This document shows, piece by piece, positions 52-10,556 of a stretch of 32,766 nt of DNA (positions are counted from its first letter, which is position 1; the number at the start of each line of letters is the position of its first letter). The stretch comes from Clostridiales bacterium (GTDB lineage Bacteria; Bacillota; Clostridia; Peptostreptococcales; Acidaminobacteraceae): assembly GCA_021107455.1 (NCBI GenBank), contig JAIOSU010000037.1, forward strand, positions 1 through 32,766, in the 5' to 3' direction. Position numbers and translations under genes: made by a program. The notes under the pieces were generated by a model. That model was not told the origin of the DNA, searched no databases, and saw nothing but the letters and a program-made list of their open reading frames with translations.

Positions 52-80
52 TTGCATAGATTATTTTATTCGGCTAGAAT
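52..80 (+). promoter_or_regulatory. Sigma-A promoter of the exporter leader
   Basis: TTGCAT (52-57) and TAGAAT (75-80) are separated by exactly 17 bases, close to the vegetative consensus TTGACA-N17-TATAAT. Transcription would start near 87, leaving about 60 bases of untranslated RNA before the leader ORF at 149. It is the only convincing promoter ahead of the ABC exporter genes. No operator-like palindrome is obvious around it, which fits control after initiation. Confidence 0.7.
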
Positions 81-148
81 GTTTATAGATTAGGACATAG
101 TGTTCTAACAAAGGTGAAATACAAATTCTAAAGAAGGAGGTTATAAAC

Positions 149-274
149 ATGATGACTTTAACCAAGACTAACGCATTACAATTCAGTTCAGCATTTATTG
201 GCAGTGGCACTACAAGTGCGTCCAAATTTAGAAACAATCAATTAAATATGTTTATGACCTGCGGTCGATTATAG
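149..274 (+). CDS. 41-residue leader peptide upstream of ABC exporter (BmrB-like by position)
   Basis: This short ORF has a very strong ribosome binding site (AAGAAGGAGG, 131-140) and starts with two consecutive ATG codons. It encodes 41 residues rich in Thr, Ser, Asn and Phe, with no membrane segment, and ends in CGRL. I do not recognise the peptide sequence. Its position is telling: between a good promoter and an intrinsic terminator, ahead of a heterodimeric multidrug ABC exporter. That matches the Bacillus subtilis bmrB leader, whose translation couples ribosome-targeting antibiotics to read-through into bmrCD. Codons 26-28 encode Lys-Phe-Arg, a basic-X-basic triplet of the type known to stall macrolide-bound ribosomes. 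The regulatory role is inferred from layout, not from homology. It could instead be a small functional peptide. Confidence 0.6.
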   Translation: MMTLTKTNALQFSSAFIGSGTTSASKFRNNQLNMFMTCGRL

Positions 275-330
275 GATTTTGGATAAATGAAACATTTGAT
301 CTGAAGAAATCATAGTTGATGAACCACAGG
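258..330 (+). promoter_or_regulatory. Candidate antiterminator pairing
   Basis: CCTGCGGT (258-265), inside the last codons of the leader ORF, can pair with ACCACAGG (323-330), the left arm of the first terminator. Seven of eight positions are Watson-Crick pairs, with a single C-A mismatch. A ribosome finishing the leader would cover 258-265 and let the terminator form. A ribosome stalled upstream would leave it free to sequester the terminator arm. A small local hairpin, GACC (256-259) with GGTC (263-266), competes. Inferred by eye without free-energy calculation. Confidence 0.4.
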
Positions 331-354
331 CATAATTCGTCTGTGGTTTTATTT
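322..354 (+). terminator. Intrinsic terminator 1 after leader ORF
   Basis: AACCACAG (322-329) pairs with CTGTGGTT (341-348) around an 11-base loop, followed by a T-rich tail through 354. It lies about 48 bases after the leader stop codon and before the exporter genes, so it would attenuate them. A perfect 14-bp palindrome, ATTTTGCGCAAAAT (351-364), directly follows. Confidence 0.7.
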
Positions 355-435
355 TGCGCAAAATTTGTCTGAATTTTAGTGCAATTCAACTTTGAAATAA
401 AGTTGCCAAACGGTCTGGGCTAAGTCCAACCGTTC

Positions 436-461
436 AAAAACCACGCTTGCGTGGTTTTTTT
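436..461 (+). terminator. Intrinsic terminator 2 before ABC exporter
   Basis: AAAAACCACG (436-445) pairs with CGTGGTTTTT (450-459) around a CTTG loop and runs into seven T residues (455-461). An additional hairpin sits directly upstream: AACGGT (409-414) with ACCGTT (429-434), plus inner TGGG/TCCA. The terminator ends about 35 bases before the exporter start codon, so the genes would need read-through or an unseen promoter. Confidence 0.75.
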
Positions 462-495
462 ATGTTTAACAGAAGGAGAATTAGGGGGTAGTAAA

Positions 496-2255: not shown

Positions 2256-4106
2256 GTGGAAAATCAAAACAAAGAAATGAAACTAAAATACGACAAAAAC
2301 ATCTGGAAAGAAATGTTTGCTTACTTCAAGCCTTTTAAGAAAGACTTTATAATCCTGTGTGCATTCATGATATCACTGGCACTCATTGACATTTCGTTTC
2401 CACTGTTGACGCAATTTGCAATCGACACTTATGTCATTCCAATGGATATCGAGGGTCTCTCTAGAGTTGGTCTGGCTTATTTGGCACTGGCAATAGCACT
2501 ATCATCAATTGTCTTTTTATTCATTCGTCATGCTGGAAAAATTGAAATGAATTTGCTTTACAAAATGAGAAAAGACAGCTTTGAAAAATTGCAAAAATTA
2601 TCGTTCAGCTACTACGACAAAAATGCCATAGGCTGGATGATCGCAAGAACAACTTCAGATGCACAAAAAATCTCAGAGACACTGGCTTGGGGATTGGTGG
2701 ATCTCGTTTGGGGCGTATCCATGATGTTTGGAATCTCCGTCGTGATGCTCATCGTCAACTGGCGACTGGCTCTTGTGACACTCATTACAGTGCCGATACT
2801 TGCGTTCATCAGCGTCATGTTCGAAAAAAAGATGTTGGTGGCATACAGAAATGTACGTAAGATCAACTCAAAAATTACTGGACTGTTCAATGATGGCATA
2901 GTAGGGGCAAAGACTACCAAGACCTTGGTGAGGGAAGAATTGAACCAAGAAGAATTCGGCGAAGTGACCACTGACATGAAACGCACATCAGTCAGGGCGG
3001 CATCGTTTTCAGCAGGTTATCTACCAGTCGCACTCTTCGTATCGGCAATAGGAACAGTACTCACGCTTTATTTCGGAAGTATCTTTGTAGTCGATCAAAT
3101 CATCACTTATGGTAAATTGGTGCTTTTCATCACTTATGCAAGACAGTTTTTCGACCCGGTTCTCGAACTGGCGAGAATCTATACTGAAATGATCAGCGCA
3201 CAAGCTGCGGCAGAACGCGTGATGTCACTGATCAACGAGAAAGAGGAAATCGTAGAATCCGAACAGGTCCTTCACAAATACGGCAACCACTATGAGCAGA
3301 AAACCGAAAACTGGGAGCCCGTGGAAGGCAATGTGGAATTTAAAAATGTGGATTTCTACTATAAAGAAGGGGAGTATATCCTTAAAGACTTCAACTTGAA
3401 TGTCAAAAAAGGACAGACCATCGCTCTTGTCGGTGAGACGGGTTCCGGAAAAAGCACTATAGTCAATCTCGCCTGCAGATTCTATGAACCTACTGAAGGT
3501 CATATTCTTGTGGATGGCATTGATTATAGGGAGCGTTCACAAAACTGGTTGCATGCGAATATCGGTTATGTGCTGCAATCGCCACATTTATTCAGTGGCA
3601 CAATCAAAGATAACATCCGTTACGGGAAACTGGATGCCACAGATGAGGAAATCATCGAAGCCGCCAAAACCGTCAACGCACATGATTTTATATCCAAACT
3701 GGAAAAAGGCTACGACACAGAAGTTGGAGAAGGAGGAGGTCTTTTATCAACAGGTGAGAAACAATTGATTTCCTTCGCACGTGCAATTATTGCGAAGCCT
3801 AGATTGTTCTTCCTGGATGAGGCGACGTCTTCAATCGACACGGAAACAGAAGCAAAAATTCAATATGCGATCGATCGGGTACTTGAAAACAGAACGAGCT
3901 TTATCATCGCTCACAGACTGTCCACAATCCGAAACGCCGACCGCATACTGGTCATCAAAAAAGGTGTTGTCATCGAAAATGGCGATCACCATGAACTTAT
4001 GGCACTTAAAGGTCATTATTATGAACTTTACACCAATCAATTTGTTGAAGAAGGTGAGAGGGAGATCCTCAATCACCAAGATAAAAGCGTACTGAAAAGT
4101 GCGTAG
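2256..4106 (+). CDS. ABC multidrug exporter subunit with catalytic Walker B (BmrD-like)
   Basis: This 616-residue membrane half-transporter is the presumed partner of the preceding gene, pumping drugs or lipids out of the cell at the expense of ATP. An exporter transmembrane domain occupies about residues 20-330. The ATPase domain has Walker A GETGSGKST (393-401), a degenerate signature LSTGE (497-501), Walker B LFFLDE with the catalytic Glu (about 522), and the H-loop His in FIIAHRLS. A canonical Glu here with a weak signature, against the reverse in the upstream gene, is the asymmetric arrangement of heterodimers such as BmrCD, where this subunit completes one functional ATP site. It starts at GTG 2256 behind CAGGGGGA, 17 bases after the upstream stop, so the two are co-transcribed. 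The gene itself is intact, though its partner is interrupted. The substrate cannot be read from sequence. Confidence 0.9.
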   Translation: MENQNKEMKLKYDKNIWKEMFAYFKPFKKDFIILCAFMISLALIDISFPLLTQFAIDTYVIPMDIEGLSRVGLAYLALAIALSSIVFLFIRHAGKIEMNLLYKMRKDSFEKLQKLSFSYYDKNAIGWMIARTTSDAQKISETLAWGLVDLVWGVSMMFGISVVMLIVNWRLALVTLITVPILAFISVMFEKKMLVAYRNVRKINSKITGLFNDGIVGAKTTKTLVREELNQEEFGEVTTDMKRTSVRAASFSAGYLPVALFVSAIGTVLTLYFGSIFVVDQIITYGKLVLFITYARQFFDPVLELARIYTEMISAQAAAERVMSLINEKEEIVESEQVLHKYGNHYEQKTENWEPVEGNVEFKNVDFYYKEGEYILKDFNLNVKKGQTIALVGETGSGKSTIVNLACRFYEPTEGHILVDGIDYRERSQNWLHANIGYVLQSPHLFSGTIKDNIRYGKLDATDEEIIEAAKTVNAHDFISKLEKGYDTEVGEGGGLLSTGEKQLISFARAIIAKPRLFFLDEATSSIDTETEAKIQYAIDRVLENRTSFIIAHRLSTIRNADRILVIKKGVVIENGDHHELMALKGHYYELYTNQFVEEGEREILNHQDKSVLKSA

Positions 4107-4333: not shown

Positions 4334-4600
4334 ATGGCCACCAAGAAATTATGTAAAATGGAAAGTGAAGAGAAAGTATCGGGAGTCTGTGCGGGACTTG
4401 CACATTATTTTAGCATAGATGTGACAATCGTACGACTTGTATGGGTACTCGCGATCATATTCGGTGTGGGATCACCAGTTTTGATCTACATTGTGCTCGC
4501 AATCATATTGCCGACATGTGACCCTAACGAGGTCAAGTTCACCGACGTCGAAGAAGACGAAATCGATGAGTATGATGATTCGGACAGATATGAAAGATAA
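4334..4600 (+). CDS. PspC-domain small membrane protein
   Basis: An 88-residue protein with a PspC domain at residues 5-62: a basic start KKLCKMESEEKVSGVCAGLA, the typical AHYFSIDVTIVRLVW stretch, and one hydrophobic segment (about 33-60) ending ILPTCDP. The C-terminal 25 residues are strongly acidic (DVEEDEIDEYDDSD). PspC-domain proteins sit in the cytoplasmic membrane and are linked to envelope-stress responses, though in Firmicutes many such short proteins have no defined role. It has an excellent Shine-Dalgarno (AAAGGAGG) before ATG 4334, its own candidate promoter and a strong terminator behind it, so it looks monocistronic. No other Psp genes are nearby. Confidence 0.85.
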   Translation: MATKKLCKMESEEKVSGVCAGLAHYFSIDVTIVRLVWVLAIIFGVGSPVLIYIVLAIILPTCDPNEVKFTDVEEDEIDEYDDSDRYER

Positions 4601-4612
4601 GGCTTTTCAGAT

Positions 4613-4656
4613 AAACGCATCCGTAATCCGGTAGGATTATGGGTGCGTTTTCTTGT
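4613..4656 (+). terminator. Strong intrinsic terminator after PspC gene
   Basis: A 17-bp stem joins 4613-4629 and 4634-4650 (AAACGCA...TAATCC with GGATTA...TGCGTTT) with two G-U pairs and a GGTA tetraloop, followed by TTTTCTTGTT. It isolates the PspC gene from ruvA. A TATAAT at 4666-4671 just downstream could serve as a -10 for ruvA, but no good -35 is visible. Confidence 0.85.
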
Positions 4657-4694
4657 TAAATGGGTTATAATAGAAGAAAAATACGGAGCGTAAG

Positions 4695-5297
4695 ATGTTT
4701 GATTATATAAAAGGCACACTGAACCATGTGGAATCCGATTTCATAGTGGTTGAAAATCAAGGTATTGGCTACAAAATTGCGACATCCACTCCTTCAATTT
4801 CGGATTTTAGCAGTCCGGGTGAAGCCGTTGTCGTCTTCACAGAAATGATAGTTAGAGAAGATTTGATTGCCCTCGTGGGATTTTCCACAAGGGATGAACT
4901 TCATATGTTTCAATTGTTGACTTCTGTTAGCGGAGTGGGTACGAAGGTCGCTATTGGCATCCTGTCATCCATTCCATTCAGTCAGTTGGCGTTCATTATA
5001 GGTACTGGTGACATCAAAGCGTTGACCTCTGCTCACGGCGTAGGTAAAAAAACTGCTGAGCGTATTGTCCTTGAACTCAAGGACAAAGTGGCGAAATTTG
5101 GACAAATCACTCAAGATTCGATGGATACCCCAGCATTTGGTGGGCTCGCCACAGATCAGGGGGATGCACTCGCTGCACTGGTGACACTCGGATACACTAA
5201 AAGTGAGGCACAAGGCGTACTTAAGAGCATGGATCTAGCAGGCATGTCGGTAGAAGACATCATAAAATCGGCACTCAGAAAACTAATGACACAATAG
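4695..5297 (+). CDS. ruvA: Holliday junction branch migration complex subunit RuvA
   Basis: A 200-residue cytoplasmic DNA-binding protein, the usual RuvA length. RuvA tetramers bind four-way junctions and load the RuvB motor for branch migration during recombination repair. An N-terminal OB-fold ([20 protein letters not shown]) is followed by two helix-hairpin-helix motifs, [14 protein letters not shown] (about 75-88) and [18 protein letters not shown] (about 109-126). A flexible linker and a C-terminal RuvB-interacting domain (about 150-200, with [12 protein letters not shown]) complete it. It begins at ATG 4695 behind GGAGCGTAAG and is followed after 13 bases by ruvB, the standard pairing. 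Confidence 0.97.
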
Positions 5298-5310
5298 CAA
5301 TGGAGGTTAC

Positions 5311-6357
5311 ATGGAACGCTTTGTCACTCCCAAACACATAGAAGAAGATCATATTCAGGAAAAGTCCATCAGACCTAAACAAATTGATGAATATATAGGG
5401 CAAACCAAAACAAAGGAAAAACTCGGAATCTTCATGAAAGCCGCAAAGCTCCGTGGAGAATCCCTCGACCACGTCCTTTTATACGGTCCTCCTGGACTAG
5501 GCAAGACGACACTTTCCGCAATCATCGCCAATGAGATGAACGTAGGAATAAAGATCACATCCGGGCCGGCAATCGAAAGACCTGGGGATTTGGCAGCCAT
5601 ATTGACTGGACTCAAGGATGGAGATGTCTTATTCATAGACGAGATCCATAGACTCAGCAGACACGTTGAGGAAGTGCTTTATCCAGCCATGGAAGATTAC
5701 GCGATTGATATTGTAATCGGTAAGGGACCAGGAGCGAGATCGGTCAGGCTTGATCTTCCAAAATTCACGCTCGTCGGAGCGACCACCAGGGCAGGACAAT
5801 TGACTGCACCTCTGCGCGACAGATTTGGCGTCATATGCAAACTGGACCTATATGGTGTCGATGAACTCGCGGAAATCATCAGAAGGTCTGCAGATGTCCT
5901 GAATATTCCTATTGATGAAGATGCGACTATGGAAATGGCAACAAGAAGCAGAGGAACACCAAGAATAGTCAACCGACTCCTTAAGAGGGTCAGAGACTAT
6001 GCTCAGGTGAGAGGTTCTGGCATCGTTACTAGAGAAATTGCGAAAAAAGCACTGGATATGCTGGAAATCGATCCTATTGGTCTAGATGCCGTGGATCGAA
6101 ATATTCTGGAATGCATCATCGAATTTTTTGACGGTGGACCCGTTGGAATTGATACACTAGCAGCTACAACAGGAGAAGAAAACACTACAATAGAAGATGT
6201 CTATGAACCGTATCTGATGCAAATCGGTTTTATTCACCGTACTCCTCGTGGCCGTGTGGTCACAAACAAAGGAAGGATGCACCTTGGATATGAGGCTGTG
6301 ACTACAGGTGAGCAACTGGTTTTTGTTGTGGATGAAGATCTTCAGGAGGTATTATGA
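5311..6357 (+). CDS. ruvB: Holliday junction DNA helicase RuvB
   Basis: A 348-residue AAA+ ATPase that forms hexamers on either side of a RuvA-bound Holliday junction and pumps DNA. Visible are Walker [10 protein letters not shown] (59-67), Walker B LFIDEIHR (107-114), the sensor 1 region VGATTRAG (about 155-162) and the arginine finger in LRDRFG (168-173). A C-terminal winged-helix domain follows (about 255-335; [26 protein letters not shown]). ATG 5311 is preceded by TGGAGG. Its stop codon overlaps the start of the SpoIID-like gene by four bases (ATGA), so the genes are translationally coupled. Confidence 0.98.
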
Positions 6358-7985
6358 GAGCAGTAAGACCACTGAAAATAATAGTAATGATATTTTTGAT
6401 TTCCCTAGTGATGGGACAACTTGCTTTTGCGGATGCGGAGCCTTCAGTTGATATCGGACTTTCCTATGGGAGTGTGAACATAGGTTATTTTGACGTCCAG
6501 AGTTCCGGTGGTTTTGAGTTCGGAATCGACAATAAATCCAGTGGATTCATCTCTCTGATGGATCTCAGTGCATTTACCAGGCTGAACATCCAAAAAGATG
6601 ACGGAAATCATCTTAAGCTTGGAGAATCATTCCCGACTTATGAGTTAGCAAAAGTTGAGCTTGAACGGATGAAAGTCATTGACGGCTCGGTCTATTTGTC
6701 TTATGATGGACAATGGCATATCCTGTATGGCGATTATGCTTCAGTAGAGGAAGCGCAAATGACTGCGGCAAGTGTAGGTCTCAAATTCGGGATTGAACTT
6801 GTTCAACCGTTGAGTTCAAACAGTTTATTCGTGATTATTTATTCTGACGGACAACTCGTTTTGTCATACAATTCATCCATTCCGGAAATGATGTTCAAAA
6901 GTGGATTCTTCACTTATGAGAGCGTTCAGTATAGAAATGGTTTTTTAGTGAAACGTCTTCCTGGCAGTGATATGACGTTCATCAATCGCGTCAGTATGTC
7001 GGAATATCTATATGGAGTGCTCCCTAAGGAAATGAGTGGGGATTGGCCTATTGAAGCTTTGAAGGCACAAGCTGTCGCTGCGAGAAACTATGCGATTCAG
7101 AGCCTTGGTAAATATAGTGAATATGGATTCGATGTATGTGATACAGTGAAAAGCCAGGTATATGGAGGCTATTCAGTAGAAAAACCGATGAGCAATCTGG
7201 CAGTGGATGCCACTGCAGGTATGGTGCTCACCTACCAAGGTTTGATTGCTCAGTGTTATTATCATTCACATAGTGGTGGGTATACTGATGCACCAGAAAA
7301 CATTTGGTCGGCGGCGATTCCATATCTCAAGCCAGTTGAAGATCCATTTTCTTTAGGGTCACCGAACACGGATTGGCAGCTTGTCATGAACAATGTCGAA
7401 ATCGAGCAGAAATTGCTGATAGCAGGATACAACATCGGAAAACTTCAGAAGATCAGAATCCTACAACGTACAGAAAACGGTAGAGCGGTTACCGTTCAAT
7501 TCGTCGGAACCATGAGCTCAGCTACGCTATATAAAGAGAAATCACGTACAATTCTTGGTACGACCGTACTCAAAAGTCTGATGTTCAGTTTTGACCCGGC
7601 TACAGCCGTGACAAGAATTCCTGAAAGGTTACCTGCACCGGGAGTTGTTTTGGCGCCCAAAATTGCACTAAGCATAGAGGGTGCATATGCAGAATATGAG
7701 TCAAAAGACGCGATCCGTGTGGTGACAAGCAGAGGGACAACCCTGTCAAGAATCAACAGGATACAGCCACCGCAACAAATTGTGACCACGACAGTGGATG
7801 TATTTGAAGAAGTGGATGCAACCAGCGGTTCTGTGACTTTTTATGGTCATGGTTATGGACATGGTCTTGGAATGAGCCAATGGGGAGCCAAAAAAATGGC
7901 TGAACTCGGCTTTGATTATACAAAGATTTTGGCACATTATTACAATGACACGATCATCGAGTCAATATATAATAAACAGAATTAG
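6354..7985 (+). CDS. SpoIID/LytB-domain cell-wall protein
   Basis: A 543-residue exported protein. The first 27 or so residues form a signal peptide or anchor (basic MRAVRPLK, hydrophobic core, LAFADA). The SpoIID/LytB domain begins near residue 200 with [21 protein letters not shown] and [14 protein letters not shown], and ends with [20 protein letters not shown] near 500-520. SpoIID is a lytic transglycosylase acting on denuded glycan strands during engulfment of the forespore; LytB is an amidase enhancer. The N-terminal 180 residues contain a SPOR-like stretch, and the C-terminal half contains an insert around 420-480 that is longer than in SpoIID itself. So this is a paralogue in a housekeeping operon, not certain to be the sporulation gene. 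AGGAGG inside the ruvB end supplies its ribosome site. Confidence 0.88.
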
Positions 7986-7997
7986 AAAAGGTGGAAC

Positions 7998-9020
7998 ATG
8001 AGAACTAAAGACTTTTATTTTGATTTGCCAGAGCATTTGATTGCGCAGACGCCGTTACTTGATCGTTCTGAGTCACGTCTGATGCATGTGAGTCGTGCTA
8101 CCGGCGAAATTTCGCATCGAAAATTTTACGATTTTTTGGATTATATGTCTCACGGGGATTGTTTGGTACTCAACAACACCAAAGTCATCCCTGCGAGACT
8201 TTTTGGTGTCAAGGATACCGGCGCCACTGTGGAATTCCTTCTTCTAAAAAGGTTGAATATGAACCAGTGGGAAACACTAGTCAAGCCTGGAAAAAAAGCG
8301 AAGATAGGCACTGAGTTCATTTTTGGTGAAGGCAAACTGAAATGCACAATAATCGGAATCGGTGAAGAGGGCACTCGAATCATCGAATTCAGTTATGACG
8401 GTGTTTTCGAGGAAATTCTAGATGAACTGGGCACGATGCCATTGCCCCCATATATCACTGAAAAATTGGATGATCCAGCTCGTTACAATACCGTATATGC
8501 CAAACATAACGGTTCAGCAGCAGCACCGACAGCCGGTCTGCATTTCACACCGGAACTGCTTGAGGCTGCACGCAAAAAAGGTGTTAGAATCGCCTATGTG
8601 ACGCTTCACGTTGGACTTGGCACATTCAGACCCGTAAAAGTGGATGATGTGAATGAACACAAAATGCATTCAGAGTATTATGAACTCGATGAGGAGAACG
8701 CTGAGATCATCAACAGCACTCGAGCCAACGGAGGTCGAATCATCTCCGTGGGAACCACTTCCACAAGGACACTGGAGACCATAGCAGACGAAAACGGATT
8801 GGTCAAAGCAAAGAGTGGATGGACAGAGATATTCATTTATCCGGGGTACAAGTATAAAGTGGTGGACGGACTCATCACCAACTTCCACTTGCCTGAATCG
8901 ACGCTGATCATGCTCGTGAGCGCACTTTCCGATAAGGAAACTATATTAAAAGCATATGAAACTGCAGTTGCGAAGGAATATCGTTTTTTCAGTTTTGGCG
9001 ATGCAATGATGATTATATGA
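7998..9020 (+). CDS. queA: S-adenosylmethionine:tRNA ribosyltransferase-isomerase QueA
   Basis: A 340-residue cytoplasmic enzyme that transfers and isomerises the ribosyl part of SAM onto preQ1 at tRNA position 34, giving epoxyqueuosine. Family hallmarks are the start [20 protein letters not shown], the [15 protein letters not shown] segment (about 54-69), [15 protein letters not shown] (about 174-188), [11 protein letters not shown] and [11 protein letters not shown] (about 251-261), and the ending [15 protein letters not shown]. Full length. It follows the SpoIID-like gene by 12 bases behind AAAAGGTGG, and precedes tgt, which supplies its substrate. Confidence 0.97.
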
Positions 9021-10185
<1,165 letters not shown>

Positions 10186-10247
10186 GATATTTAAATGAGC
10201 TTTATATAAAATATGAAGCGAATAGACATTTTAAGGAGAGAATAATT

Positions 10248-10556
10248 ATGGAAAGTACTTTAGGATTAATTCTTTATATGGGTTTCTTCTTCGGACTGAT
10301 GTATTTCTTGCTCGTCAGACCTCAAAAGAAGAAGACAAAACAATTGAACGAACTTAGAAGCAATATTCGTTCCGGTGATGTTGTAGTTACTATCGGAGGA
10401 ATCGTCGGAAAAGTGATGAGTGTCAAAGAAGATGAATTCGTACTTGAAGTAGGCGCTGCAAAAACGAAATTGACTTTCAAGAAATGGGCTATATCAGCGA
10501 TTGAAAAAGCTTCTGCAGAAGAAGTTGCTTCAGTTGATGTAGAGACGATTGAATAG
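10248..10556 (+). CDS. yajC: Preprotein translocase accessory subunit YajC
   Basis: A 102-residue single-span membrane protein. Residues 5-24 are hydrophobic (LGLILYMGFFFGLMYFLLV), followed at once by the family motif RPQKKKTKQLNELRSNIRSGDVV and the IGGIVGKV segment. YajC associates with SecDF and the SecYEG channel. The start at ATG 10248 is preceded by AAGGAGAG. secD and secF lie 2.2 kb downstream, separated by the SCIFF pair and a carbonic-anhydrase-like gene. A terminator follows immediately. Confidence 0.95.
   Translation: MESTLGLILYMGFFFGLMYFLLVRPQKKKTKQLNELRSNIRSGDVVVTIGGIVGKVMSVKEDEFVLEVGAAKTKLTFKKWAISAIEKASAEEVASVDVETIE

Follow-up and report, generated by a model that had tools for sequence, protein, structure and literature searches.

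A probable ribosome-gated transcription attenuator, built from competing and covarying RNA pairings, ahead of an ABC exporter pair

The stretch of DNA analysed here, hereafter the window, is a whole contig of 32,766 bases (G000:C123) from a genome of 3.5 Mb. It carries, on the forward strand and behind a leader region, the ABC exporter pair named in a preliminary description of the same DNA. Both genes are found, but the first (496–1839) is interrupted by an in-frame TAA at 1837–1839, within the region of the nucleotide-binding domain, and the same frame reopens beyond it to 2238. The second gene (2256–4106) encodes 616 aa. Intact copies of the first gene exist in relatives, with an open frame of 580 codons in the relative L032, and the stop codon of the window reflects either gene loss or an assembly error. 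In the PDB, the exporter subunits find their best matches in full-length chains of the P-glycoprotein type. When only half-size bacterial chains are considered, TM288 gives the second subunit 375.6 bits, 6raf_A (presumably TmrAB) 366.8, and YheH/BmrD 325.6, whereas the first subunit, scored on the intact gene of L032 in place of the interrupted one of the window, reaches 343.4 bits with SAV1866, 307.3 with 5mkk_B, and 294.7 with YheI/BmrC. None of the 25 best NCBIfam models listed for each subunit reached its cut-off. Since other half-size exporters outscore YheI/YheH for both subunits, the earlier label "BmrCD-like" can be kept for the broad class, but orthology is not implied. The target genes are, as judged from their sequences, members of the heterodimeric ABC exporter class. 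A tblastn search of plasmids with the second subunit (E <= 1e-100) returned 135 records, all below 60% identity and the best at 52.4%. On the 3' side of the exporter, positions 4334–10556 hold an ordinary housekeeping run. It opens with the gene of a PspC-domain protein and a terminator-like hairpin (4613–4650) behind it, and continues with two genes that are presumably ruvA and ruvB, a SpoIID-domain protein, queuosine genes, and YajC.

Upstream of the exporter, the boxes of the previously claimed leader promoter can be read directly at 52–80 (TTGCAT-17-TAGAAT). The putative -35 box (TTGCAT, 52–57) agrees with the consensus at 3 of 6 positions and the -10 box (TAGAAT, 75–80) at 5 of 6, with a 17-nt spacer between them. 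The match is weak, however, and because a promoter scan of the window did not list this pair among its promoters, the promoter is the weakest item of the leader. In relatives, a consensus-based pick gave inconsistent positions, the likeness there being one judged by eye. On the 5' side of the promoter lies a direct repeat, TTACA-N6-TTACA (22–37), whose reverse strand reads as a WalR-type box (TGTAAT-N5-TGTAAT), a type matched by the WalR consensus motif in an excerpted report (PMC9210968). The close leaders are 19 from the family of the window plus that of Proteiniclasticum aestuarii (L056), 20 in all. In the 220 nt that precede the leader start, 16 of them contain a repeat of the form T(T/G)ACA-N6-T(T/G)ACA (0.04 in shuffles), as do 5 of 42 distant leaders (0.06 in shuffles). 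Through this repeat, an OmpR-family regulator may provide a further input at the level of DNA.

The leader contains, as first described, an ORF of 41 codons (MMTLTKTNALQFSSAFIGSGTTSASKFRNNQLNMFMTCGRL) that starts with ATG at 149, ends at 274, and is preceded by a strong Shine-Dalgarno (SD) sequence (AGGAGG, 135–140; SD energy -13.8). The two intrinsic terminators proposed for this region were recovered by a terminator scan as terminator-like hairpins with U tracts at 321–349 and 436–459. Terminator 1 (321–354), present in all 20 close leaders, is made of segment 3 (321–331), segment 4 (339–349), and a U tract, and starts 46 nt beyond the leader stop. Terminator 2 (436–461) is made of segments 5 (436–445) and 6 (450–459), and 18 of the 20 close leaders have a second terminator. 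Six terminator-like sites were counted in 5 kb, against 3.0 in shuffles (sd 1.8). The leader as a whole (87–495) folds with a z-score of -3.39, with 1 of 100 shuffles folding at least as well, and when left free it is dominated by its terminators, with pair probabilities of 0.98 for 3:4 and 0.92 for 5:6. The fold with 258–286 forced single-stranded, which had been proposed as a check, loses the antiterminator by construction. Rfam gave no match at threshold in the window, and the best sub-threshold hit within 1–600 reached 22.7 bits against a gathering cut-off of 55, with leader models appearing below threshold only.

Orthologues of the second subunit (E <= 1e-190) are found in 24 of the 41 genomes of the family, that of the window included. 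Two of them, G002 and G028, were left out of the count for contig ends, and 19 of the 22 assessable genomes with the exporter have a leader of this build; the exporter stands without any such leader in G012 and G016, and with an unsupported one in G017. Further upstream of the leader, the sequence differs by eye between genera. A scan of genome contigs supplied 80 further loci, the best 80 of 582 relatives. The full set consisted of 101 loci (the window and L032–L131). Removal of the repeats L053, L054, L055, and L130 and of the duplicate short contig L033/L052 (55 nt upstream) left 95 loci. Of these, 17 are not assessable, 12 for want of an aligned first-subunit start and 5 with less than 200 nt upstream. 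An SD-preceded ORF plus a terminator was found by rule in 60 of the 95 loci, and 18 of the 78 assessable ones are without this combination.

The strongest result of the comparison is a predicted helix that the preliminary description did not contain and that is the best-supported part of the leader. Segment 1 (139–150) begins with the final GG of the SD and reaches into the start codon. It is complementary at 12 of 12 positions to 248–259 in segment 2 (248–265), close to the end of the ORF, and would form one strand of an anti-antiterminator with 12 contiguous pairs. In the window alone, this 1:2 pairing has p = 0.000 against 200 shuffles. Across 19 close leaders (L039 being left out for a gap), 94% of cells are paired at the first nine positions of the helix, compared with 34–45% when one strand is slid by 1 to 4 nt. 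Base changes are compensatory at several of these pairs: pair 5 is A-U in 15 leaders, G-C in 3, and G-U in 1; pair 6 is C-G in 10, U-A in 8, and U-G in 1; and pair 7 is A-U in 12, G-C in 4, G-U in 2, and unpaired in 1. Over the 60 loci, with ORFs chosen by rule and their last 60 nt as the partner, own partners pair with a mean of -16.2 kcal/mol against -11.8 after reassignment, and 0 of 20,000 reassignments reach the value of the own partners. The same count, 0 of 20,000, was obtained for the 43 loci outside the close set, which still include one locus (L042) of the family of the window. Locus by locus, p <= 0.05 against dinucleotide shuffles is found in 37 of 60 and p <= 0.01 in 26 of 60. Some choice went into the 0 of 20,000 obtained for the 20 close leaders, because their segments were placed by eye and the element of each entered by hand; the 60-locus shuffle and reassignment tests of 1:2 and 2:3 used rules only. 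Both kinds of test leave the relatedness among loci in place. In distant loci, the helix is often AGGUCGUG with CACGACCU.

The candidate antiterminator already proposed, 258–265 with 323–330, is present with 7 of 8 positions paired and a C-A mismatch at 262/326. This 2:3 pairing has p = 0.02 against 200 shuffles in the window alone, p <= 0.05 in 29 of 60 loci, and p <= 0.01 in 17 of 60. Reassignment of partners, again with the last 60 nt of each ORF, reached the own pairing in 0 of 20,000 trials over the 60 loci and in 1 of 20,000 over the 43 outside loci. Within the 20 close leaders the test is not significant (2,462 of 20,000), because CCUGCGG opposite CCACAGG is nearly invariant there, mismatch included. 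Five of the 29 loci with p <= 0.05 (L065, L066, L081, L082, and L084) are arranged otherwise: the best partner of the terminator arm falls entirely 3' of the chosen ORF, so that these leaders may follow another design or the ORF may have been picked wrongly. The 1:2 and 2:3 helices share 258–259 and overlap by two or three bases (258–260), and their junction on CC(U) is kept among close leaders. By the preliminary description, relatives without a conserved leader ORF or a covarying pairing would have spoken against the attenuator. The idea withstood this check: in 20 of 20 close leaders the ORF frame runs without a stop up to the pairing element, and the antiterminator covaries over the 60 loci. 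Since relatives show the same arrangement with compensatory base changes, it is more than chance.

Each of the two other frames contains at least one stop in 20 of 20 close leaders, and the SD-preceded ORFs of this set range from 26 to 60 codons. The leader ORF is thus conserved as a reading frame with its own SD, and is predicted to be translated. Element 2, which in the window contains CCTGCGG (258–264), begins in frame 1 in 17 of the 20 close leaders, giving Thr/Ala/Ser-Cys-Gly and variants, in frame 0 in two, and in frame 2 in one, whereas in distant loci with CCT adjoining a 1:2 run of at least 7 it begins in frame 0 (Pro) in 10 of 13. Because the element is read in different frames by different clades, selection appears to keep the RNA pairing rather than the peptide. 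In 19 of 20 close leaders, 17–25 nt separate its start from the last base of the stop codon, so that a ribosome terminating there would roughly cover or touch the element; in L039 the distance is 41 nt.

A further complementarity, also missed before, may link the two terminators. Part of segment 4 (GTGGTTTT, 343–350) can form 8 bp with 437–444 in segment 5. A second terminator within 140 nt of the first is present in 33 of 63 loci (the 60 loci plus L132–L134), including 18 of the 20 close leaders, and these 33 were used for the 4:5 test. Reassignment reached the own pairing in 0 of 20,000 trials over the 33 loci, in 2 of 20,000 over the 18 close leaders, and in 2 of 20,000 over the other 15. 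Per locus, p <= 0.05 is found in 12 of 33, and in the window alone the pairing is not significant (p = 0.12). When 2:3 is enforced in the window, 4:5 reaches 0.97 before segment 6 is made, whereas 5:6 beats 4:5 at equilibrium (0.89) once it has been made; the 4:5 relay, like 2:3, must therefore act during RNA synthesis. The signal may come in part from duplicated terminators, and because a duplicated terminator would show the same 4:5 complementarity, the relay between the terminators is held as possible and at lower confidence than the other pairings.

Pair probabilities were followed in the window as the 3' end of the RNA was advanced, taking the highest value for each helix and rough guesses for the ribosome footprints. 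Without a ribosome, 1:2 stands at 1.0 for 3' ends from 262 to 325 and at 0.98 at 330, 2:3 rises to 0.95–0.97 for 3' ends from 335 to 342, and from 346 onwards 3:4 is at 1.0. A ribosome on the start abolishes 1:2 and brings 2:3 to 0.99–1.00 for 3' ends from 330 to 342, before 3:4 takes over at 346 (0.92). The trajectory with a single ribosome at codon 10 hardly differs from that without any, and adding a second ribosome on the start makes it resemble the one with a start-bound ribosome. When the ribosome sits on the stop, 2:3 stays at 0 for all 3' ends, largely as a consequence of the mask, and 3:4 is already at 0.55 at 342. In the close set, placing a ribosome on the start raises p(2:3) just after segment 3, a value that depends on the 3' cut point of the RNA, in 19 of 20 leaders, and by at least 0.2 in 15. 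This probability is high in L036, L133, L049, and L050 with or without a ribosome on the start, and near zero in both cases in L056.

Comparison among relatives thus reveals a conserved ORF frame and three predicted, competing pairings with covariation. The leader is a real, conserved attenuator, and very probably a ribosome-gated one. It is likely that it acts as a ribosome-gated transcription attenuator of the heterodimeric ABC exporter in which the chain 1:2/3:4/5:6 is opposed to 2:3/4:5. The first chain would be the OFF state, and the ON state would consist of 2:3 and then 4:5. A ribosome finishing the leader would cover segment 2, and terminator 1 would form. If no ribosome is loaded, segment 1 would capture segment 2 once this is made and hide the SD, and terminator 1 would form again. 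A ribosome held at or near the start would keep segment 1 busy and leave segment 2 free for 2:3 and 4:5, with both terminators skipped; in an alternative ON state, a ribosome stalled further in would be joined by another on the SD. That finished translation means OFF and a ribosome held at the start means ON would follow from the modelled structure. The earlier claim, in which a ribosome at the leader stop favours termination and one stalled upstream favours read-through, draws its support from comparison and folding. Since equilibrium briefly favours 2:3 without a ribosome, OFF without translation would need a kinetic persistence of 1:2 in the window, where 1:2 is complete about 60 nt before the brief stretch that favours 2:3; in several leaders, the OFF outcome without translation holds at equilibrium. 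The competition of the pairings in the cell, OFF without translation, the role of 4:5, and ribosome-stalling drugs as the inducer are what we infer from this design.

Other readings have to be weighed against this one. The leader could be the same kind of attenuator with a 1:2 helix that merely shuts the leader SD after transcription, so that the decision would lie between 2:3 and 3:4 alone. This version is unlikely but deserves a place, given that 1:2 and 2:3 overlap by those two or three bases and are not fully exclusive, that in the window 2:3 takes over from 1:2 at equilibrium for 3' ends from 335 to 342, and that masking the start has little effect in four relatives. Against it stand the gain of at least 0.2 in p(2:3) upon start masking in 15 of 20 leaders, and the preserved junction of the two helices. 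Appreciably less probable is a peptide-specific arrest leader, in which a nascent peptide with a C-terminal Cys-Gly and an inner (I/T)SA(S/P) stretch would sense a drug or metabolite and the RNA pairing would be secondary. Both sets of residues are common to many close leaders, but the Cys-Gly is encoded by the pairing element, distant clades that read another frame have Arg-Pro instead, and the leader peptides are otherwise poorly conserved among relatives. The window and L032 have the same final 17 codons, stop included, whereas 10 of the first 25 differ and 6 of these changes alter the residue. The (I/T)SA(S/P) and C-terminal CG pattern was accordingly rejected as a peptide-level arrest motif.

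The least credible reading, and one to which we give very little weight, is that two ordinary insulating terminators stand next to an unrelated small ORF, the complementarity arising from look-alike terminator arms and SD-like sequences. Terminator arms do have A/U runs in common, and a terminator duplicated from its neighbour would yield 4:5 complementarity without any function. Partner reassignment, however, controls for shared composition and still gave 0 of 20,000 for each pairing, and dinucleotide shuffles kept 1:2 at p <= 0.05 in the 37 loci mentioned above. The genomic placement of the elements argues in the same direction: a strict pattern of elements 2, 3, and 4 matched 13 of the 41 family genomes at one site each, 12 of them at the exporter, and its reversed form matched none of the 41. 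The thirteenth genome (G026) was matched in a stretch rich in TTATCCACA, which was taken for chance. The strict pattern is too narrow, missing G001, G021, and G062 as well as the divergent G009, G013, G027, and G036. An Arg-Pro-type pattern scanned over 299 genomes of the phylum hit one genome, at one palindromic site, and was uninformative, since its reversed control matched more genomes. A hairpin (GCACU-ACA-AGUGC, 207–219) can be drawn in the middle of the ORF, over the (I/T)SA(S/P) stretch common to many close leaders. It is no stabler than shuffles (z from -1.65 to 1.41 over the 20 leaders), and a pause site there is possible but unsupported.

The proposed chain of pairings can be read as a trp-like relay in which ON would need a ribosome held early. 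In the E. coli trp attenuator, neighbouring segments form an alternating chain and the ribosome is the gate. Unlike that system and the leu and phe attenuators, the window leader has no run of one amino acid that could provide regulatory codons, and its segment 1 is the SD.

The published systems closest in kind are compared here on excerpts of the cited reports. The bmrB leader of bmrCD in B. subtilis, whose report also mentions the trp attenuator, has a 53-codon ORF with a GTG start, and its terminator, antiterminator, and anti-antiterminator all lie within nucleotides 60–162 of bmrB (PMC4191407). When translation of the leader was blocked, read-through was lower and induction was lost, so that the outcome "no translation means OFF" was shown in B. 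subtilis; the authors left the role of the anti-antiterminator unclear (PMC4191407). The present leader resembles it in the ORF ahead of a heterodimeric ABC exporter and in the three alternative structures, and a need for leader translation, for expression and induction, is what bmrB displays. In contrast to bmrB, with its terminator inside the ORF, the ORF of the window ends at 274 and terminator 1 starts at 321; the window leader moreover has 41 codons, an ATG start, an SD used in the anti-antiterminator, and two terminators. The bmrB logic invoked by the preliminary description would therefore carry over as a mode of working but not in its published geometry.

In the vmlR leader of B. subtilis, a three-codon uORF lies in the anti-antiterminator, a ribosome held on the uORF start blocks that structure and leads to the antiterminator and to read-through, and initiation at the uORF is essential (PMC9226507). 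The window leader would work in a similar way, and both leaders place an ORF in an anti-antiterminator that overlaps the antiterminator, in the window through 258–259. In the vmlR excerpts the SD is single-stranded before the hairpin, the target is an ABC-F gene, and a hairpin sequesters the SD of the main gene, whereas the window has 41 codons spanning the helix, its SD inside the helix, and an exporter as target. The cplR leader of Clostridioides difficile is uORF-dependent, antibiotic-induced, and terminator-based, with anti-SD elements (PMC10201436). It is thus, like the window leader, a clostridial terminator-based leader with a uORF and anti-SD elements, but its uORF has three codons, its terminator hides the SD of the main gene, and its target is an ABC-F gene. 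Two adjacent intrinsic terminators are also found in the drug-resistance attenuator ermK of B. licheniformis, whose target is a methylase (PMC4335068). Finally, an ABC-leader upstream of a multidrug export operon in lactobacilli is a predicted attenuator (PMC2965389). It likewise precedes a multidrug ABC exporter and, compared by description, its excerpt presents an analysis of a premature terminator with a leader ORF unmentioned.

The general kind of leader is already known; what differs here is a long ORF, an SD and an ORF end that provide the two strands of the anti-antiterminator, and two terminators that are seemingly chained. Full-text searches of an open-licence collection listed no description of this leader. 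The antibiotic-sensing leaders described in the excerpted reports mostly control ABC-F and methylase genes, and here a leader class stands before exporters and is present in several clostridial groups. Wiring that places the SD inside a helix would explain in structural terms how expression can come to depend on translation of the leader, and points to a way for a single ribosome to govern two successive terminators. Residues that look conserved (Cys-Gly, Arg-Pro) are here an RNA pairing element read in different frames. The most complete version of the model approaches an even chance without quite attaining it: a six-segment domino attenuator whose first domino is the leader SD, which would sense an early-trapped ribosome, treat absent and completed translation alike as OFF, and act on two terminators serially, as an exporter leader class of Clostridia and beyond in which the RNA pairing is kept while the peptide drifts and changes frame.

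Outside the close set, loci in which 1:2 and 2:3 both have p <= 0.01 include L071 from Tissierellia, L104 and L117 from Clostridium, and L073. The last of these belongs to a 1.16-Mb contig from Calditrichales, a group remote from Clostridia, and shows the same leader build (p = 0.005 for 1:2 and p = 0.005 for 2:3); leader and exporter may have been transferred horizontally as a unit in this case.
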